A stretch of DNA of 64,000 nucleotides from Proales similis (lineage: Eukaryota > Rotifera > Eurotatoria > Ploima > Proalidae), in the NCBI GenBank assembly GCA_019059635.1, contig JAGVRJ010000011.1, forward strand, positions 992,001-1,056,000, written 5' to 3'. Below are positions 34,601 to 50,595 of the stretch, piece after piece. The position numbers and the translations under genes were made by a program. Below the pieces are notes generated by a model, which saw nothing but the letters and a program-made list of their open reading frames with translations, made no database searches and was not told the DNA's origin. How positions within the stretch are numbered: the first letter of the stretch is position 1; the number at the start of each line of letters is the position of its first letter.

Positions 34601-37600
34601 ACCTGTTCTATTACAAGTTCAACCAGGACATTGCTCTTCCCAATCTGATTTGGAACTTCAAGTGCAGAGAAGAGCTGCGCGAGGCGCTCGAGAACGAGAT
34701 TCGTGCGTTCAACATCGACAAAGAGCTCGGACAAGGTTACGAGATCGCCTGGAACTACACCGAATTCGAAGTGGCCTACAACTGTCTGACGGACGAGATA
34801 AAAATCGGCGACTACTATTTACGCCTGTTGCTTGAGTCCGGCAGCGGAGTGCTCGACAGAATAACCCAAGGCCTGACCAAAAGCGCAGGCAAAGAAGAGC
34901 CGAACGCCGGCGAGAAGGAGGCCAGCGAGGACACTCCAGACGATCAGTCGGCCAAGGAAGGCGGCCAAGAGAAAGCGATCGTGTCCGAGAATGCAGTCGA
35001 CGAGCTTGAGATTCACAACGCGGTCGAGTTCTTTAACGATTTGTACCATCGCTTTTTGCTCTCCACCAACATGAAGGGCATGTGCTTGCAGGCGATGACA
35101 ATTGTGTACACAAAGTGCCACGAGCAGATCGGACCCTTTCACGATACCAAATACATCGTCGGCATGCTGGACCGTACAACGGACAGAGAGGAGCGCGACC
35201 GCTTGCTCGTGTTCATCGACTCGCTGATCTTAAACAGGCAAAACGTCAAAGACATAATCGACAACAACGGCATCAAAGTTCTGGTCGATCTGCTCACTCT
35301 GGCCCATCTGCACACGAGCCGAGCCTATGTGCCCACGCAGACAAACGTGATTGAGGCGGCGCCCGACTCCGAGCGAGAAGAGGAGAAAGAGTGGTTCCAT
35401 GGCAATAAGCAAGGCCCGTACAGCTTCAAAGAGTTGCGCGAGCTCTACGAACAAGGCACGATAGATGGCAAGAGTCGATGTTGGGCGCAAGGCATGGACG
35501 GGTGGCGAGCACTGGAGAAGATCGCCCAGCTCAAGTGGTCGTTCATGGCCACCGGTCAGGCCGGAATGAACGAGACCTCCATGTCCATTCTGATATTGAA
35601 CATTCTCATCAAAATGTGCTCCTACTTCCCGAGCCGGGACGCGACCGGCGCCATCATTCGGCCCCTGCCCAAGATAAAGCGGATTCTTTCGGACGCCACG
35701 TTTCTGCCGCACATTGTTCAGCTCGTGCTCACATTCGATCCGATTATTGTCGAAAAGGTGGCCTCTCTCTTGTTCTTGGTCGTGCAAGACAATCCGATTG
35801 TCTCGCGTCTCTACATGACCGGCGTGTTCTTTTTCATTTCAATGTACACCGGCTCGAACATTCTGCCGATCGGCCGCTTCCTGCACTACACTCACATGAA
35901 GCAGGCGTTCCGCTCGGAGGAGTCAAACGAGCGCAAGATCATGTCCGACTTGGCGCAGCGCTCAATCCTGGGCCACATCTATCCAGAGGCGATGATCTGC
36001 TATTTGGAGAATCACGGCTACGAGCAGTTCGCCAAAATCTACCTGGGCGAGTTTGACACGCCCGAAGCAATCTGGAACAGTGAGATGAGACGGTTCATGA
36101 TTGAGAAAATCGCCGGCCACCTGGCCGACTTTACTCCACGCCTGAGGTCGAACACTCGCGCCCTCTATCAGTATTGTCCGATTCCGATCGTCGTTTACCC
36201 GCAGCTCGAGTCCGAGCTCTTCTGCAGCATTTACTATCTGCGTCATTTGTGCGACGAGCGGCGATTCGCCGACTGGCCGATTGCCGAGCCGGTCAAGCTG
36301 CTGAAGGAGTGCTTGCAAGCGTGGAAGAGCGAAGTGGAAAAGAAGCCGCCGAGCATGTCACGCTCGGACGCCTACGCCATCATGCAGCTGAACACCGAGA
36401 ACGGTGCGCCGGACGAGAACCAAATCAGAAAAGCCTACTACAAACTGGCGCAGAAATACCACCCGGACAAGAACCCGGAGGGCAGAGAGATCTTCGAACA
36501 AGTAAACAAGGCCTACGAGTTCTTGTGCAGCGCAGTGAAGATCAAAGACGGGCCCGATCCGGAGAACATCAACTTGCTGCTGCGGGGCCAGATAATTCTG
36601 TTCAAACGCTACTCGGACATTCTGATGCCGTACAAGTACGCTGGCTACTCGATGCTGATCAGCACGATCAGAATGGAGACAAGCGACGACCAGCTGTTTA
36701 GTAAAAAGAGCCAGCTGCTGAGTGCGGCCACCGAGCTCGCCTATCAGACGATCAGATGCTCGGCGCTGAACGCCGAGGAGCTGAGACGCGAGCAGGGCAT
36801 TGAAATACTAAACGAGGCGTTCGACCGTTGTGTGACCATGCTGAGTCAGTACAGCAAGCAGGAGAGCGACGACATGAGCGTGCAGGTTTGCATTCACGTG
36901 GCCAAATGTTTTGAAGCGGCCGCCCAGTTCGAGCAGTGCTGCGCCAAAATGCTCGAGATGGCCAACTTGGTCAAGAACTTGTGCAGATGCTTGCACTTTG
37001 ACAACCTGCCGCTTGTGTGTCAGAGCGCGACCGAGGCGGTGAGCGCGTTCGCGGTCAATCAGCAGCTACAGGCCACTCTTCACCAGTCGGGCGTTCTCGT
37101 TCACCTGCTGCATTACATGTTCAACTACGATTTCACTCTGGAGGAAGGCGGAGTCGAGCGGGCGAGCGAAACGAACCAGCAAGAGACCGCCAATCGGCTC
37201 GCTCGTGTCTGCTTGGAGGCATGCGCTCGTCTGGCTGGCTTCCTCGCCCCCGACAGCAAGATGGACAAAACCAACCGAGTGATGCAGTCGCTCATTTCGT
37301 TGATCACACCCTACTTGGCTCGGCGAGTGGGCGACCCAGATCGCGGCGAGATTCTCAAGCTGATGAACTCAAACAGCCGCAATCCGTATCTTGTCTGGGA
37401 CAACGCCACTCGAGCCGAGCTCAAGGCCTACATTCAAGGCGAACGCGACTGCTTGTACAGACGTGGCGAGTGCGACGACCAGTCACTTGGCGCCATGTTC
37501 AAGTACTCGGTGCTCGAAAAGGAGCTCACAGTCGGCGACATTTACGTTCGAATTTACAACGAGATGCCTAGCTTCCAGCTGGACGACTCGCGTCAGTTCT

Positions 37601-39411
37601 GCGCCCATTTGCTCGATTTCATCGGCTCCGACGCCCAATACCTCTACTCGGTGCTGATGAACCAGGCGCTGAAAAATACGCTGCAGGGCGAGCGTCTGCT
37701 CAAAATCGAGCAAGCACTCGAAGCGCTTCGAAATGTGATAAAATACAACGACGGAGTGGAGACGCAGTGTATCGGCCATTTCAAGCTGGTCTTTATGCTT
37801 CTTCGTCTGTCCTGGTCGAGCAGCATTCAACGCCTCACTCTGGAGATGCTGATCATGGCCACAGCGAACAAGGACTGCGTGGCTGACATCGCCAACTCGG
37901 ACGTGCTGGTCAATCTGCTGATCGCTCTTCACTCGTACGTGCCAGGCCAGCAGCTGGCCATCGAGTGCCTCTACTCGTTGTGCTCGAACGGCAAGATAGT
38001 CAAAGATATGATCACAACCGGCGGCCTCCTCTACTTGCTCAACATATTTGTCAACAGCTCAGTGCCTCAAGTGCGAGAGAAATGTGCCGAGCTGGTGGCC
38101 AAGCTGGTCAGCGACAAGCTGACCGGACCTAAAATTCGCCTAATTCTAAATCGATTCATTCCGCCGCTGTTCATGGACGCGATGAAAGACAGTCCGGAGG
38201 CGGCCGTCAACATGTTCGAGGGCACGCACGAGAATCCGGAGCTCATCTGGAATGACGACTCCCGCGAGCACGTGCGCAGTGCCATCAGACGCATGAGCGA
38301 CACTTTGTACGAGAAACAGACCGCGCCCAACGGAGCCGAGCACAAGTGGGCCATTCTGGAAGATTTGACCGCGGCCGGAGTGGCCGATGTGAAAAAGCCG
38401 ACGTCGACGCTCTACTCGTCGGTGGAGAACGAGCTTGTTGTGAGCGGCGTTTTCATTCGCCTGTTCATTGCAAATCCGGCCTGGGTGCTTCGAAAGCCCA
38501 AAGAGTTTATGGTCGATTTGTTCGAGTCGTGGCTCGACACGGCCAACCGAAAACAAAAGGAAGGCGAGGCGCTTGAGCAGCTCACTCAAGCTCTTGTTCA
38601 ATTGTTCAATGCTCAGCCGACGCTGTTGGAAAACGTGCCCAACATGGGCGTGCTGCCCCAGCTCATCCAAGCGCTCGAGTCGAATAAAGACTCGATTGTG
38701 GGCGCTGGTCTGCAAGTTCTTCACCAAGTGGTCAACAGTGACGCCTGTCTAAAATCGTTTGCCGGCCTTCAGCTGATCCCGGCACTAAAGAAAGCAATGA
38801 AGGAGCGGCAGGATTTGATCGCCGTCACTGCCGAGGCCTTGGCGGTTATATTCGCCTGTCAGGCAGTCGTTGACGAGTTTGTTGGCCAGGTAAGTGAACG
38901 AGAGTCGTTCGTCTCCGTTCAAACGACTCAATCTGTTGACCAAAAGGCACTCAAATGCAAAATCATCGAAGACATGCTTCAGGCACTTGAAGCACGACTC
39001 GAACGTGTCGAAAGACCGGCCTCGATCAAAGCTCAGATAGTGAACGCACTGAAATCGATGCTCAATTCAACCCAACATCTAGCCGAGGTGATTTGATGCC
39101 GCATTCCACCCTTATCTAACGCATTCATTTAACTCTGGTTCGTCTGCATGATCAGGTGGAGAGAATTCTGGCCGCGTCGACCATATGGAGAGATTACAAG
39201 GACCAAAAGCACGACCTGTTCATATCGAACTCGAGCGCCATCGGCTATTTGACCAACAGTGGCCCGTCGGTTGCAGGTAAATGAACAAAATTCACACCAG
39301 TGATTAGCCATACGCCATCTCAAATCTCGCCAAGGTTACCTGACTGCCGGATCGAGCATGAACTCGCAGGCGGAGAAGCTACCACCGCCGCCTGATTTGG
39401 TCGAGGACTAA
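31629..39411 (+). CDS. DNAJC13: DNAJC13 / RME-8, endosomal J-domain protein
   Basis: Very large early-endosome protein that recruits Hsc70 to SNX1/WASH membranes and controls clathrin and cargo recycling. Fifteen exons (31629-31687, 31801-31876, 31934-32122, 32181-32684, 32738-32829, 32890-33139, 33201-33370, 33423-33522, 33585-33692, 33749-33860, 33911-34476, 34543-38889, 38947-39087, 39156-39276, 39335-39411) give 2,303 residues. The N-terminal PH-like part reads [16 protein letters not shown] and [13 protein letters not shown] repeats occur as [33 protein letters not shown] and [15 protein letters not shown]-like segment ([15 protein letters not shown]) and the J domain with HPD ([17 protein letters not shown]) sit mid-protein; armadillo-like helices follow. 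The tail ends [11 protein letters not shown]. The last-but-two intron (38,890-38,946) is in frame and stop-free. One 4.3-kb exon holds over half the gene. AATAAA at 39,543. Confidence 0.97.
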
Positions 39412-41661: not shown

Positions 41662-43109
41662 TCATTTCAGACGGATCTCGAACTCGTCTCCGCTTTTAAT
41701 GTTCAGGCTGATCAGTGACTTGGTAGGGATGCGTAGTTCCTCAGGGCCGTAAACCTTAACAGCCTCCAAGTCAATGTAGTATAGTCTGAATTTGGCCGCC
41801 TTCGAGCCGGCGAATGGCTCGAGTTGACGTTTGAGATCGCCGACTGTGCCTCGGACATCTACACGAATCAACTTTTGCTTGTCGTTAAATTTCACAACAC
41901 AGTCGACAGTTTTGGCCACTTTCAGGTTCACATCGGCAAGTTTGTGAAGAGTGCCGTGTTTCTGCTCGAGCTCAAAGTAACGGCTCGGCTTGTGCTCTCG
42001 CTCCATGAAGTGGCGAATGAACTTTCTCTCGCATCGTTCGCGCTCTTCGTCCGACAGGCGGCTTCCGTTTATGCAGTTGATCGCATCGCCCAGATGGGAT
42101 ACCATCATGAAGAAACGCTCGTCTTCGTTGTGCTGCTCCAGAACCGGAATGTTCTGCACGCGGACTTTTCTCAATGCCTTGAATTGGCCCAGTTTCTCGA
42201 GGCATTGCCATTTGTCGATCGGCAAATCGCTGAGCACAATCGAGTCCAAATTGGCAAAATGCTCTGCCTCGCCAATGTCGCTCAGATGGTTTTCGCTGAG
42301 CGCCAGATGCTCGAGCGACGGAAAACTCTTTCCCGCGTTGGCCACATGCTGCCACTCTCTGATGCCGTTCTTTTTCAAGTAAAGCACCTTCACCGATGGC
42401 TTGGTGAAATTGTCGCTGAACTCAATTTCTGAGTAGTTGTTCTCAGAGAGATGAAGCTCGTTCAGGTTGGGCAAGTGCTGAATCAACGCCTCGAGTACGG
42501 GCAGTTCAATCAGGCAACGATTCAGCACCAAAGTGCCGAGACCACTGCTGTGCAATAGAGGCCATTCAACTCTGTCGAGCCATTCGCCGGCGGATCGAGG
42601 CAGTCGGACGTTGTCGGACAAGTTCAGAAACTGAAGACCGCTCAGAGTGGCCAGTAATCTAATCACCTGGTTCAAGTTTCGATTCATCAAAAAAGTTCGA
42701 TCAACATCTTTGAAGAGACAAAAATGGCTCACTTGGACCCAATCGTCCAACAGGTTCCCTGACAAGTCAAGTTCACGCACTCGAGAGCAGCTTTCACTCA
42801 GCTCGGTCTCATCACCGATGGACGCGATGCCTTTTTTGCTCAGACCCATGCTGATCACATTTGGCACTGCAGCAGACGATTGCATTCAAATAGATTCGCA
42901 GAGAGAACAAAGAGAGAGAGAGAGAGAGATGATGGAGACTTACGAGGCTTGCGAGGACTCAGCTCCACTTGAGACTCGCTTGCTTCCTTTTCCTCGATGT
43001 TGCGTAGTTTAGAATCTTTGAGAGAGAGGGCGAACGAGAATAGACGCTGTGGGTCGATCTCGTTGCCGTATCGTTCGTAGATCGCCTCGACTAAAGTCGC
43101 TGAATCCAT
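41662..43109 (-). CDS. TBCEL: Tubulin-specific chaperone E-like protein, copy 1
   Basis: Exons 42944-43109, 42733-42866 and 41662-42666 (minus) give 434 residues. The N-terminus starts MDSATLVEAIYERYG and has an acidic linker. LRRs follow (RVRELDLSGNLLDDW, LQFLNLSDN, LNELHLSENNYSEI, LEHLALSENHLSDI) and a C-terminal ubiquitin-like domain (VDVRGTVGDLKRQLE, FRLYYIDLEA, GDEFEIRLK). TBCEL (E-like, LRRC35) destabilises tubulin dimers; unlike TBCE it has no N-terminal CAP-Gly, and none is seen here. Both introns sit at the same protein positions and phases as in copy 2 at 48,763-50,595, so the two are paralogues. The second intron (42,667-42,732) is 66 bp, in frame and stop-free, so retention would add 22 residues. 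Confidence 0.9.
42910..42930. repeat. (GA)n tract in intron 1 of TBCEL copy 1
   Basis: Simple GA repeat close to the donor side of the first intron. Confidence 0.7.
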
Positions 43110-43618
43110 CTGAAATGAAATTTTTGACAGTTTCGCTTTTTGCAAGCTCAAGTCGAATAATGGCAGTGATTATGAATTTGAACGGGCTTGTGAGTGTCTG
43201 TGTATAAGCATGCGTCAATTTGAGACAGAGAGCCAAGAGGCGAGTAAGCCAGTCACAGTCGCTGGGACAACAGGCAGGCAACAGAACAGCTGCGGCTTGC
43301 ATTCTGACTCAACGGCTGAATCATATGGTCGAGACAGGCGAGGCTTTTTCCAGGCCATGAACATGAACGCGTTCAACTACTCTTATGCGCGGTCATTATT
43401 CAGCGCCAGCAGGCTAAAGACAGGGCCGATCGATAATGCGCGCCCGGTCGATTCTAACAGACAATTCGGCTGACCACCTTTGAATGCCACAAGGACTTGA
43501 GTTTCTTATCATTGGCTTGCAAACTTATTTTTATTGAATTCTAAAGATCTTTGTGATATCGAATCGACTACACATAAATTTGATCTGAACTGAAACAAGA
43601 TGAAAAAGTGGAAGAGAC
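43110..43618. other. Intergenic: TBCEL copy 1 upstream / ACR3 3' region
   Basis: Carries a minus-strand AATAAA (TTTATT at about 43,527) for the ACR3 gene and repeat copy A (43,424-43,483). No coding frame supported. Confidence 0.6.
43424..43483 (+). repeat. Direct repeat flanking ACR3, copy A
   Basis: Shares gccgatcgataatgcgc exactly with copy B at 45,450-45,520, then a diverged block: both read aacagaca, ctgacc and tttga in the same order, with an 11-bp gap in A. Weaker similarity (cagctg, gactcaa/gagtcg, tatgatc-like) may extend about 200 bp upstream of both. Confidence 0.7.
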
Positions 43619-44704
43619 TCAGAAGACGTCTTGTTGCTCTTCTTTGCTGGCCGCTCTCTTATCGAATAGACTCCGGGTGCGATTGTTAATCCAGACGAAA
43701 AAGAGCATCGTGGGCACTTCAATGAGAACGCCGACCACTGTGGCCAAGGCGGCGCCCGATGACGAGCCGTACAAAGAAATGGCGACGGCCACCGCCATTT
43801 CGAAGAAGTTCGAGCACGCGATCAGAGTGGCTGGTCCGGCAATTTTATACGGAAGCTTGAGCAGCCAGGCGCCCGCGTACGTTATTGCCCAGATGAAAGT
43901 CGTTTGAATTAGGAGCGGAATCGAGATGAGAAGAATGTCGAGCAGTTTTGAGCTGATCGTTGATGCTTGGCTGATGAAGAGCAAAATGACCATGAGGATT
44001 AGAAACACGGAGCAAAGGGCGTCCAGGCCCGGAATGACCTTTTCTTGAAGCCAGCGAGTCGAAGATTCGGTGCGCGTGAGCAGGGCTCGGATAACTACGC
44101 CGAGCAGGAGAGGTATGAGAACGAAAAAGCCAAGCGAATAGAGCAGAGTGAGCCAGGGCAAGTGAATCTCGCTCGATTGAGCCAGCAGCTTAATCGTTGG
44201 GCTGTAGGCCACCAAAAGGATTAGATCGTTGACCGCCACTTGCGTCAGAGTGTAGGCCGGATCGCCGTTCATGAGCTTGGACCAAACAAAGACCATTGCG
44301 GTGCAGGGCGCGCCTCCCAGAAGCAGACACCCGATAAGGTATTGGTTGGATCTTTCTCTGCCAAGGTAGTCGATGAACACGAATTTGAAAAACAGAATAG
44401 CCAGACCGAACATGGTGAACGGCTGAATGGCGTAGTTTACAAACGTGGTCAATATGATCGCCTTGGGCTGTTTGACCGCGTTTTTCAAACTCTTAAAGTC
44501 GATCTGAAGCATCATGGGCAGAATAATTCCCCAAAGAAGAACGGCGATCGGAATAGACACTTGAGCCAGAGTGGCCCGTTCCAGGACTGCTTGCACGCTG
44601 GGAATAAAGTAGCCGATGGCCACTCCGAGTCCCATTGCCAGTAGAACCCATATTGAGAGAAAGCGTTGAAAGAGATTCATGCTCGCTGGAGCCGGTTCGT
44701 GCAT
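43619..44704 (-). CDS. ACR3-family arsenite efflux transporter (intronless)
   Basis: One uninterrupted exon of 361 residues from ATG 44704 (a second ATG at 44680 is possible; the frame runs on upstream from a GTG). The protein is an ACR3 permease, of the BART/SLC10-like fold with about ten TM helices. It reads FQRFLSIWVLLAMGLGVAIG, PIAVLLWGIILPMMLQIDF, then LLLGGAPCTAMVFVWSKLM with the Cys of TM4 needed for As(III), DPAYTLTQVAVNDLILL, PLLIQTTFIWAITYAGAWLL, and SNFFEMAVAVAISLYGSS / ALATVVGVLIEVPTML with the TM9 Glu. In microbes it exports arsenite using the proton gradient. Family identity is firm; substrate here is inference. Vertebrate SLC10 bile-acid carriers lack these motifs. Poly(A) signal on the minus strand at about 43,527 and neighbours on both sides are animal genes. 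Confidence 0.93.
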   Translation of the reverse strand: MHEPAPASMNLFQRFLSIWVLLAMGLGVAIGYFIPSVQAVLERATLAQVSIPIAVLLWGIILPMMLQIDFKSLKNAVKQPKAIILTTFVNYAIQPFTMFGLAILFFKFVFIDYLGRERSNQYLIGCLLLGGAPCTAMVFVWSKLMNGDPAYTLTQVAVNDLILLVAYSPTIKLLAQSSEIHLPWLTLLYSLGFFVLIPLLLGVVIRALLTRTESSTRWLQEKVIPGLDALCSVFLILMVILLFISQASTISSKLLDILLISIPLLIQTTFIWAITYAGAWLLKLPYKIAGPATLIACSNFFEMAVAVAISLYGSSSGAALATVVGVLIEVPTMLFFVWINNRTRSLFDKRAASKEEQQDVF

Positions 44705-45449
44705 TCTTGTTGAGCAAGGTGAAAAATCGAGTTTTATGTGCGCATGTACAATAGATGATTCAAAGTCAAAGAGAAGAAATAGCACTACTACTGAAATCAA
44801 GACGAGCACATCTAGTTCCGGACCAGCTGATTCGAGATAAGTTTCAGCCGCCTACAGACAGGCCGCCGTCTCTATTTTATTCGGTCATTGGCATTAGAGC
44901 ACGTCTAGATTGGGTCAATCTTCAAAATGCTTTCTAATCTTTTTATTTTTATTTAAAGAGATACGAGCGCGTTTGAATTGAGCCAAAAAAGAGGCACATT
45001 TGATAAAGATGCTCTTCTCGTTTGTCCCAAGTCTTGAGAGGGAATTAAAAAAAAGGAAAGATTGTTGAATTGAAAAAGGAGCAGATTTATTGTTTCACAT
45101 TCAAGAGGAGGCAACGAATGAATTAACGCTGAATATAATCTCCGGCCACAAGGGATTATAAATGGGCTCAAACTGAAGTCGGGTGATGTGTGCGCAATAG
45201 AGGAATGTTGGCCATTGGCGGCCTCCAAGGAGCACTGATCTGAAAGCAGAGCAAAATGGTCGAATGGGCACTGTGGTTCGAGGGAGCGATGTTGCAAAAA
45301 GCAGCAAGTGGTCAGAGGGACATAAAGAGTGAACGACCAGGCCCAAACAGCTGTTGTCGAGCGGGTCACAGCTTGAGTCGTATGATCACAAAGATCTTCT
45401 TAAAGCGTCTGCTATTGAGAACGGCGCCGAATAATCGCCGCAAGAATCG

Positions 45450-45520
45450 AGCCGATCGATAATGCGCACGGGTCAGACAGCGAGTCGACTCGAACAGACA
45501 GCTAGTCTGACCGCTTTTGA
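45450..45520 (+). repeat. Direct repeat flanking ACR3, copy B
   Basis: Same orientation as copy A, about 2.03 kb away, so the ACR3 gene lies wholly between them. B contains an extra cagacagcgag-like insertion relative to A. Confidence 0.7.
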
Positions 45521-47906
45521 CGCTTCGATCGCTTCAAGACCTACTCATCGCATCGTTCGCACTAATTCCAATTTAATTTTCTATTAATCTAAGCAAATAG
45601 ACCGCCGGGCTGGCAGAACTGTCCGATTGATCGGCGCCTCATTTAGCGATTGTAAACAGACTTGAGCTCTAATAGACTCTAATAGGCAAGCTGGAAAAAT
45701 CGAATTGCAACCAGCTCGTCCAGTCTAGATATCCGATTTCTCTTGCTCTTGTTTCTTGCAAGTATCATGCAAATTTCGAGTGTTTGAGCTCGAGTCGAGT
45801 CGCCAACTTGGCCAAACACACACACACACACAAACAGAATGTGTTGTCGTCAGCAGGCCAACGGCCGGATTGATTTCGCTTCCGTCGACGAGCGTGCTCT
45901 TAGTGGCAAAGCGTCATCTTCCCTATCCTCATTCCTCCTCTCGTCCCTTCTCTCTCTCTCTCTCTCTTACTCTTCCACTCTCCCACTGGCTCTTTCTCTC
46001 TTTCTCTCTCTTAGACACTAACTCGGCCCTGCGACTATCGTGAGCGCTCACTTGCAGTCTATTTATAATTCATTTTGCTCCTTTTTGGTGTTGGCTCTCT
46101 AGACCTCTATAATGCGATCTTATGAATTAGTCGTCTAGCAGATGGGGACCCGCAGCCCATAGAACCCTGAGCGAGAGTGATCGTGCGCCCTCCCTTTTTC
46201 ATGCGACATTTCTTCATATTTTCCTTTTCATTTAATCCTAGGCCGAAGAGTAAATGTAGCGCCTAGTCGAGAGTTTATTACAATTTCTTCATTCGGGGTC
46301 TCGCGCTCGTCGCCGTCTCTTTGCTCTTCGTCTTAGCCACTCGTTTGAGGTTCTCTCTCTCTCTCTCTTACGTTTTTATTTTCCAACTTGCTGCTTAAGG
46401 GAAGAGGAGGCTGCCGCCGTTGAGAATTCAGAAAGGAGCGAGCGATTGTGTGGGAGAGAGAGAGAGAGGGGGGAGCACTGAGGGATGGCTCGCTAGAGGA
46501 GAGGCCAGTCTCTGGCCCATCAGCAAAGCCTGCTTTCATCGCTGATAAATTTCTAATTACAACAAGGCAGCCGTTCAGGCGAGCGGCAAGCAATCGATTC
46601 GCATATATTTGATTGCTCATCTTGCCACCATCATCATCATCGAGTGGTAAACTATTCCCAAGAGAGCCAAAGAAGAAGAGCGAGAGCGCAAGTGAGAGTA
46701 CGAGGGATTTTGACTTTTGTTGCGTGAAAATATTGTCACAATTAAGAGTTGAAGCGAGCGCTCAGACGTGCCAAATTGTTTTTTTTTTGCCTACTCGGCT
46801 CGTATAAATCACGATGCGCGTCCAAAAAGGTGCCCGCAAAGATAATGGCCTCCGATTATAATAATAAATGAAAATGTTGGCATCCGATTTGAGCATGTTA
46901 CGTAACTTTCATTATTTTAGTATTTTTTTAGGATATTTCATTCTATTTTATATCTTCTCGCGTTCAAAACACAGGCCGTACTCTGGTTGAAGCTTGAGAG
47001 CAGACTGCCAGAGCGAACGTGTTCTAGTGGAAGAGCCGAGATGAGAGATAGGAAAAAAGAGAGCGCCAGTGAGAAGCAACGAGTGTGCAAATGATGGATA
47101 TGGCATTGCTGCGAGGCAACAACAAACTAGCTGGGCATAGTCAGTACTTGCTTCAGTCCCTGACTGACTGACAGTACGCAAACAAAAGTGAAAGGCGCGC
47201 ACTGGCTCCTCGCTCTTATCCTCCTTTTTCTTCTCCTTGTTCCTCTTCGTGTTTTTCTTCTTGTTCGCTTATCTATTTGATTCGTGTTCACTTTCTCACT
47301 CGCGTCTATGAGCGAAATTAATCGATAAATTGCTATTTAACTAATTGTGAAATTATGAATCAATCTTTAACGAGCCATGTCGACTTGCCTCTGACCGTTA
47401 AATAGCGCAGAGCAGTTAGAGAGATTAGTACAAGCTACTTGCCTTGCAATAGTTATCACGCCCTCCTCGTGACGATGGCGATTAAAAATAAGAAGAAGGA
47501 GAAGCAGTGGAGCCACAAACACTAATCTTGGTTTGCATTCGCTTGAATAGCCATCAAAGGAATTGGGAGACTCAGCAGCAGCAGAAGCATCTGATATGAT
47601 GAGACAGCGCGCACGATTGTTGTCCACTTGATCATAAGAGAGAAGCCAGACGCACGCGGCTAACTTATCGGGCAGTGCAATCGACGACCATCGTATCTAG
47701 CACGCGGCGGCCAGTTCAGTCAGCATTCACTGGTCCCTCCCCCCACTCATCTGCTCTTCACTCTCTTCTATTTCTACCCGTTTAGTTGTTCATTTACTCA
47801 TTCGCAATTGCAGCTAGTCGCACTAGTTCGCTCAGGCTTGATCGCTCCGGACTGGCTGCTGTTGTTGTCGAGTGCGGCTTCAATAGAATGGCTTGTGGTC
47901 GACGAT

Positions 47907-47910
<4 letters not shown>

Positions 47911-47939
<29 letters not shown>

Positions 47940-47940
47940 G
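47911..47940. repeat. (ATC)10 microsatellite
   Basis: Ten uninterrupted ATC units in non-coding DNA upstream of TBCEL copy 2. Confidence 0.9.
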
Positions 47941-48762
47941 AGTCAGGGCATAATTTATTAATTTGAAACGAAATAGGCTTTGAGTGGGAACGCGAGACGA
48001 GTGGCCGATGAAGACGATTTCGTTCAAATAGAAAAAATGCGAGCCAAAATTATAATCGTATTTCGAAAGAAAATTCGAATCAGGCCAAAATTTTTTTAAA
48101 GAACGAACCAGGCGCTCATCAATTAGACTAGACAGAGCCATTTCTCTTCTATTATGTGTATTTGAATTATTTTCCAATTTTTATTTGGTTCTAGTTAACA
48201 GCCGACTTCCGACTTGTTCTTTTATATATTTCTTTAATTTGGACGCGAAATCGAGCAGATTTAGGACTGAGACAGACACCAAGAGAGAAGAAAGATTAAC
48301 TCGTGGAAGGAAAAAGGCAAAAGCGATTATAATGAGCCTTCACCGGCGCCACATCGCAATGCATTGTTGTTGTCTAACATTCGGCACGAACTTTGCGTTT
48401 CTATTCTCGTTGTGTATCTCGTTAGCGTTGCTTTAGCGCGCGCCATCACACACACACACACAGATTGAGAGGCCTAGTGCGATGGTGCAAACGGAGCGAG
48501 CGAACGAGTCTACCGATTTGCTCACGCCGTACAAGCCCACATCAGCATCCTATTGCGCATTGTATTGTAATTGCGTGCTATTTCTGCTCTCCTCAATTCC
48601 TATTTAATATCCTATTTAGACAAGCTGTTCAAAAGCCGTTTGTAGCTGAGCCTCTTGTAATAGGCAAACTGGCCGTAGGAATAATACAAAGCGAAAAATC
48701 GATATTGCTGCTGGTTGACCGTCAATGCGCACCCAGTCCAGGTGTAATTCATTTAAACTGCG

Positions 48763-50595
48763 ATGAGCGACCAATTGGATAGAACGGCAGGCCAGAGCTT
48801 GCTGGAGGCAATCTACGATCGATACAGCGAACTTGACTCGTCACTGCTCTCCTGCTCGCTGGGCTCCGACGCAGGCCAGTCGGACGGTGCCTGCTCTTGC
48901 TCCTCGTCTGTGTCCACGTCGCCCGTTGAGTCTGCGCATCATCCGGACGTTTCTTTCTTCATACCGACAGCCTGCACACCGATCCGAACCAGTAATTGTG
49001 CATTTCTGCTTTAAACCGCTTTCACAAGTCAAATTACTTCTGTCTTTCGTCTCCTGGGTGTCTCTTCGATTACTAAACTCGCTCACAAAAATAGACGAAG
49101 GCCTAGTCCTCTCTTCGGTCAGTCTCGTTTTGACCGAGCAGGGAATCTGTCAAGCCGGCGACGTCTCCCAGCTGGCCTCCTGCTGCAAGCGAGTGCTCGA
49201 GCTCGACTTGTCCAAGAATGCCATCACCGACTGGACCGAGGTAAATAGCCGCGAGCAGAATTGATCGATTGAGCCAATGTATGTGAACTGAAGGTTAAAA
49301 ACATTCTGAACGCCATGAGACGTCTGCGGCATTTGAACCTGAGCTGGAACGCACTGGGCAGCGGCGACGAGAGCGAGCAAGAGATCGCCTCGTTTATCGA
49401 ACGAATCGGAAACGAATTCAATTCATACGAATGCCTGTCGACATTGATATTGAACTCGTGCTACGTTGACCTGCGAGTGGTCGAACGTCTGCTCGAGCAT
49501 TTGCCAAATCTGAGCGAGCTGCACTTGTCGTGCAACAGCTACAGCAAGATCACGTTTGATAGTGAATTTCGCAAGGAGTCGATAAAAATAGTTTACCTGA
49601 ACAACAACGATTTCAGCGATTGGCAGGAGATATGTCGCTTGGGCAGATGCTTTCCGAACTTGGAGCAGTTGGCCATCAGCGACAATCAGCTCGTCGACCT
49701 TGAGTCCAGTGAGACGAGCGACGTTTGCTTTAAGAATCTTCAGGTTTTATTGCTGAACAAGTTGAAAATCGACGACTGGTCTGTGATCGAACGCCTGCGC
49801 CAGTTTCCGAATCTCAGACACGTGCGCATTCAAAACATACCGCTGCTGGACAACTACAACGAAGAGGAAAAGTATTACATGCTGGTGGCCTATCTGAACG
49901 ACTCGATCGACAGCCTGAACGGCAGCAAGATAACGAGCGAAGACAAGGAGAACTGCGAGCGCAAGTTCCTGCGCTACTACATCGACTGGACGGAGAAGCC
50001 CAAGCGCTACTTCGAGCTGGAGAGTAAACACGGCAAGTTGAACAAGCTGGCCGACGTGCGCCTCGACACTTGCAAGCGAGTGCAGGTGAAAATCAAATAC
50101 GGCGATCGGCACATTTACAACAAAGTGGACGTGCGCCAGACGGTCGGCGACTTCAAGAAGCAGCTCGAGAAGTTCGTCGGCCTGCACTCGTCCAAATTTC
50201 GCCTCTTCTACATCGACATTGAAGCGCTGAGTGTGCTCGGGCCCGAGGAGCTGAAGCATGTCAACCGCTGCTTGTACTCGTTCAACATCAGAGAAGGCGA
50301 CGAGTTCGAAATTGACCTGAAGCACTCGGCGCGATCGAGCTCCGAGTTGAACAACAACTACCACGTGCAGAACGTGCCCCATCTTCACTACCATCACTAT
50401 ACCAGCCACGTAAACAACAACAGCTTGCATCAAGTGCCCTTTTTCGGTGGCCATATGTCAAGCAAGGCCAGAGCCAGTCCCTCTTCAGACCAATCTAAGC
50501 CCGGTGCGATCCGCCCAATACCCAACAACGCTTCGAGACCAAAGCCGTGCACTCGAGCTTGCGAGTCAAAGAGAGGACTGTGCAACAGACGCTAG
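48763..50595 (+). CDS. TBCEL: Tubulin-specific chaperone E-like protein, copy 2, with His-rich tail
   Basis: Exons 48763-48991, 49095-49240 and 49294-50595 give 558 residues. N-terminus MSDQLDRTAGQSLLEAIYDRYSEL matches the start of copy 1, then a Ser/Cys-rich linker. LRRs follow (RVLELDLSKNAITDW, LRHLNLSWNALGSG, LSELHLSCNSYSKI, LEQLAISDNQLVDL), then a ubiquitin-like domain (VDVRQTVGDFKKQLE, FRLFYIDIEALSVLGPEEL, GDEFEIDLK). Copy 2 continues about 110 residues past this point with an Asn/His-rich stretch (NNYHVQNVPHLHYHHYTSH) and a Ser/Pro/Cys tail not found in copy 1. Both introns match copy 1 in place and phase. It acts on tubulin, by family. A plus-strand AATAAA lies at 50,972. Confidence 0.9.

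Follow-up and report, generated by a model that had tools for sequence, protein, structure and literature searches.

An intact ACR3-family arsenite permease gene, probably of fungal origin, in the genome of the rotifer Proales similis

The ACR3 gene and its neighbours

The window analysed here is a 64,000-nucleotide stretch of DNA without N, corresponding to bases 992001 to 1056000 of contig C11 (1,596,375 bases) of Proales similis. This species is given in a published table as a marine monogonont rotifer with a PacBio assembly of 32,722,929 bases in 15 contigs and a GC content of 45.5% (PMC11954553); the genome searched in this study comprised 32,716,893 bases in 15 contigs. An ACR3 gene was located between two host LRR (TBCEL-like) genes (Table 1). 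Both neighbours had been called TBCEL genes in the initial annotation, and two flanking LRR genes were indeed present, but their Pfam matches were to LRR families only; we take these genes to be TBCEL-like and refer to them as TBCEL1 and TBCEL2. The first exon of TBCEL1 probably starts at 43109 and would be followed by an intron, as judged from its likeness to the start of TBCEL2. The latter is a paralogue of TBCEL1 in divergent orientation, with 48% identity over residues 94 to 407 of the TBCEL1 main exon. Two weak LRR matches were detected elsewhere in the genome beyond this pair. The closest named relatives of the RME-8 frame were from Brachionus calyciflorus (68%) and B. plicatilis (67%), and the former match marked the contig as rotifer DNA. 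A region of ∼3 kb (45600 to 48760) had CT/GA microsatellites and no recognised gene.

Table 1. Positions of genes and other features in the window
Feature	Position	Strand	Basis and remarks
Host gene RME-8/DNAJC13, 1441-codon frame	34771..39096	+	ORF, Pfam, protein search
Host gene TBCEL1 (LRR protein)	41662..43109	-	ORF, Pfam; main exon 41662-42885
Direct repeat copy 1, upstream of TBCEL1	43425..43483		17-mer and alignment
AATAAA, candidate polyadenylation signal	43530..43535	-	Starts 84 bases past the ACR3 stop
ACR3 arsenite permease, 361 codons and stop	43619..44704	-	ORF, translation, NCBIfam, Pfam
Direct repeat copy 2, upstream of ACR3	45451..45520		17-mer and alignment; 747 bases before the ATG
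Host gene TBCEL2 (LRR protein)	48763..50595	+	ORF, Pfam; start read by eye

Translation of the ACR3 frame produced an unbroken product of 361 residues, as had been stated in the initial annotation, and the family assignment was borne out by NCBIfam analysis, in which residues 9 to 339 were aligned to positions 1 to 326 of the 327 positions of TIGR00832 ('ACR3 family arsenite efflux transporter') with a score of 320.4 bits against an equivalog cut-off of 282.8. A Pfam SBF match of 117.8 bits was also obtained. The frame starts with an ATG at 44704, with a second possible start 8 codons further, and an in-frame stop is present upstream at 44854. The minus-strand AATAAA noted earlier downstream of the gene was found as well. 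A protein search of the genome with ACR3 detected one copy, which lay in the window and represents a lower bound on the copy number. Two other SBF matches in the genome were both from one place on contig C9, which we read as an SLC10-type gene; animal SLC10-type bile acid transporters share a fold superfamily with the rotifer ACR3 protein but belong to a different family.

The conserved Cys and Glu to which attention had been drawn were confirmed, with C134, E302 and E329 being invariant in all 22 aligned rows, and the rotifer protein retained 82 of the 83 columns that were invariant in 19 relatives. In the Acr3 protein of C. glutamicum, the conserved glutamate Glu305 is needed for transport; Glu302 or Glu329 of the rotifer protein may be its equivalent, Glu302 being the likelier candidate. 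Cys134 would be the counterpart of Cys129 of the C. glutamicum protein. This cysteine and Cys151 of yeast Acr3 are described as required for transport in excerpts of a 2012 review (PMC3317726). The predicted structure of the rotifer protein was helical (pLDDT, 84.5; pTM, 0.82), and its best solved folds were bacterial bile acid transporters, with a TMt of 0.83 and 20% identity. The helical model and the SBF/NTCP top folds placed the protein in the ten-span BART/SBF fold, an assignment made by fold and not by span count. Searching of solved structures by sequence detected the bile acid transporter family only, with weak E-values from 1e-4. The gene has presumably been maintained by purifying selection, and its product is predicted to be expressed in the plasma membrane or a storage vesicle, to transport arsenite and to be of benefit to the rotifer.

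A short direct repeat on either side of the gene

The 17-mer GCCGATCGATAATGCGC was found at 43425 and 45451, and these were the only two occurrences in the genome at one mismatch or fewer. Around this 17-mer, the two copies could be aligned over 59 and 70 bases. The ACR3 gene lies between them, and each copy is upstream of a minus-strand gene, TBCEL1 or ACR3. The repeat had a score of 42, compared to maxima of 33 in 500 dinucleotide shuffles and 31 in 146 window controls; with looser scoring, the values were 46 versus 41 for shuffles and 40 for controls. The score of the repeat core was reached by none of 1,000 shuffles. The repeat is best described as a short, diverged likeness built on a perfectly matching 17-mer together with an ungapped-plus-gapped core, and a duplicated upstream element is its simplest reading.

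Other readings of the repeat were not supported. A longer duplication (43143 to 43544 and 45169 to 45592) was obtained with a lenient alignment, but its flanks were insignificant, as the left and right flanks were matched by 755 and 327 of 1,000 shuffles, respectively. A genome-wide promoter element was disfavoured as the source of the repeat by the absence of any other copy of GCCGATCGATAATGCGC at zero or one mismatch; at exactly two mismatches, four places were detected, versus four for a reversed control pattern. Kinship with the region upstream of TBCEL2 was not apparent, with scores of 26 and 28 that were within the control range. A repeat finder set to a minimum length of 25 did not report the pair. 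When the DNA surrounding each copy was searched against the genome, in three runs of which the last allowed E-values up to 10, no second copy was detected.

Relatives and phylogenetic position

A protein search with ACR3 scored 7,998 candidates, of which the best 120 were considered; organism names were absent for most and truncated where given. The closest of these 120 was the protein of Catenaria anguillulae PL171, with 72% identity over 95% of the rotifer protein, followed by that of Allomyces arbusculus, with 67% identity over 98%. Further members of this set were unnamed environmental proteins, chytrids and Saprolegniales. C. anguillulae belongs to the Blastocladiomycota, a group to which we take A. 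arbusculus to belong as well. Both fungal proteins have the same conserved Cys and Glu and differ from the rotifer protein in their longer N-termini, with total lengths of 407 and 431 residues for Catenaria and Allomyces, respectively. Pairwise identities in the alignment were 72% for rotifer and Catenaria, 68% for rotifer and Allomyces and 74% for Catenaria and Allomyces, while Catenaria and three named chytrids had identities of 58, 65 and 64%.

The only named animal was Plectus sambesii, with one row among the best 120 of the 7,998 candidates and two rows among the 120 matches listed from a profile search. No rotifer names were present among these 120 and 120 matches, though two Brachionus species are in that database; further animal ACR3 copies may be present among weaker or unnamed matches. 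The two Plectus records had 51 and 49% identity to the rotifer protein and a separate place in the tree. These records (P0028 and P0242) branched apart from the rotifer gene and perhaps represent a separate acquisition.

In a quick tree of 121 rows, which gave long-branch warnings, the rotifer protein and the two Blastocladiomycota formed a group (SH-aLRT, 89). In a more careful tree, built from a selection of 38 rows, the rotifer, Catenaria and Allomyces were united with support of 99/99, and this trio was retained at 98/96 when five rows were removed. The rotifer protein was contained in a clade of 24 zoosporic fungus and oomycete rows (100/99), in which 11 of its 23 relatives were unnamed environmental sequences. 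Grouping of the rotifer with bacteria was rejected (AU p 0.000107), and nesting among non-animal sequences was supported by both trees and test. A single clade of rotifer and Plectus was disfavoured (AU p 0.0257). Two further placements were not rejected, namely the rotifer immediately outside the remaining 23 rows of the clade (AU p 0.235) and the rotifer inside the clade with the two Blastocladiomycota outside it (AU p 0.217). The four AU p values are raw, and the naming of two of the groups followed inspection of the tree. The exact branch in or beside the zoosporic fungi therefore had high bootstrap support but was not secured by the AU test. As these two topologies were not rejected, the identity of the donor is probable, and the same holds, in a strict sense, for the direction of transfer. 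Saprolegniales water moulds were located inside the zoosporic-fungus clade, which suggests further transfer between kingdoms.

The codon use of the gene was compared with that of ten other frames in the window; seven of these ten had been scanned, with Pfam matches in five of the seven, so that the set forms a rough yardstick. The GC3 of ACR3 was 0.65, versus 0.60 to 0.74 in these frames, and its fit to host codons was 0.098 per codon, versus 0.049 to 0.182. Since the codon use of ACR3 fits that of neighbouring host frames, a transfer would probably be old, although a host-like coding sequence is equally expected for a native gene. The absence of introns from ACR3 in an intron-rich neighbourhood had been put forward as agreeing with transfer. 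This argument proved weak, because host frames here are also long (up to 1441 codons, in RME-8), and the intronless state adds little.

Origin of the gene and comparison with known systems

Overall, we hold with good confidence that a single gene for an ACR3 arsenite/proton antiporter was acquired by an ancestor of P. similis from a zoosporic fungus, likeliest a member or relative of the Blastocladiomycota. The horizontal acquisition proposed in the initial annotation was supported by the trees and by the 72% identity to Catenaria, which is near the value between Catenaria and Allomyces; the donor, which had been left open, looks fungal and not bacterial. The adaptation proposed there to have followed is presumed. 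After its uptake, the gene would have settled between two host genes, taken on host codon usage and stayed intact. As in other ACR3 proteins, arsenite is predicted to be bound by the Cys134 thiol, located in the fourth span, and to be exported in exchange for protons.

An assembly artefact or contamination, with a fungal fragment joined into a rotifer contig, was considered highly improbable. The gene is a single one amid host genes on a 1.6-Mb contig, its GC3 and codon fit resemble those of host frames, and the assembly is listed as PacBio in a published table (PMC11954553); the direct repeat also indicates related local DNA on both sides, although it excludes the ACR3 frame itself. Linkage to host genes was hence observed in the contig, the neighbours and the codons, assuming a correct assembly. 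Vertical inheritance of the gene since an opisthokont ancestor, followed by its disappearance from almost every other animal lineage, was judged very unlikely. The unrejected position of the rotifer as sister to the whole fungal and oomycete set and the two records from Plectus, also an animal, are in its favour, but the unconstrained trees nested the rotifer protein with Blastocladiomycota, a clade with Plectus was disfavoured and very many losses would be required. A broad, vertically inherited animal clade had been named as evidence that would count against transfer; no such clade was seen among the matches listed and Plectus was placed elsewhere, but the outside position was compatible with the AU test.

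Transfer from another eukaryote with the same gene, such as an oomycete, a chytrid or an unsampled protist, was thought unlikely, though it deserves more weight than vertical descent. Fungi and oomycetes share the clade, the gene seems to cross kingdoms and many of the clade relatives are unnamed environmental sequences; the top identity among the best 120 of 7,998 candidates and the 99/99 support nevertheless both point to Blastocladiomycota. Little probability was given to the proposal, compatible with any origin, that the rotifer protein moves another SBF/BART solute and not arsenite. Weak NCBIfam matches to bile acid (30.1 bits) and pantoate (27.3 bits) transporters are consistent with it, but they are far below their cut-offs, while the ACR3 match tops the equivalog cut-off and Cys134, Glu302 and Glu329 are retained. 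The probabilities given to these alternatives overlap, as the question of the solute is independent of the origin and a chytrid donor would also be a zoosporic fungus.

For the preferred reading of acquisition from a zoosporic fungus, a parasite-to-host route is plausible because Blastocladiomycota include endoparasites of rotifers, which provides contact and not transfer itself. In excerpts of a single-cell study (PMC10470594), two endobiotic parasites of adult rotifers were assigned to this group, one in the C. anguillulae clade and the other as sister to two other Catenaria. A tentative extension, which we regard as possible but doubtful, is that a rotifer-parasitic blastocladiomycete gave the arsenite exporter and that it is expressed via the duplicated piece from upstream of TBCEL1 (43425 to 43483 and 45451 to 45520). 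No match to phytochelatin synthase was detected in the rotifer genome, but 14 control genomes were likewise without a match, so that this negative carries no weight.

Excerpts of the 2012 review describe ACR3 from bacteria, archaea, fungi and lower plants (PMC3317726). A literature search on ACR3, arsenic and gene transfer in rotifers, nematodes and chytrids found no title on the rotifer gene, with most subscription journals outside its scope. The rotifer gene adds a member to a known family, in an unusual host, and is not a new kind of system. The Acr3 proteins of S. cerevisiae and C. glutamicum share its family and mechanism as far as the same excerpts describe them (PMC3317726), the likeness being one of description and not of sequence; function was assayed in those organisms and is predicted for the rotifer protein. 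Excerpts of a study of bdelloid rotifers report horizontally acquired genes, some of which are deployed against a fungal pathogen (PMC11258130); those hosts are bdelloids, whereas the ACR3 host is a monogonont. The intact ACR3 gene in this rotifer genome, with its fungal and probably blastocladiomycete ancestry, is probably a sound case of horizontal transfer. Gene transfer from a fungus to an animal is unusual, and the function is directly testable. If the gene works, it would be a transferred animal gene with one clear and easily assayed function and would link the acquisition of foreign genes by a monogonont rotifer with a donor group in which rotifer parasites occur, and the parasite-to-host route becomes testable through parasite sequences.

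Among the related proteins, five (P0031, P0035, P0048, P0056 and P0059) had ACR3 fused to a PF01451 domain (low-molecular-weight phosphatase); such a chain may unite an arsenate reductase and an exporter, and P0031 was also present in MMETSP marine eukaryote transcripts.
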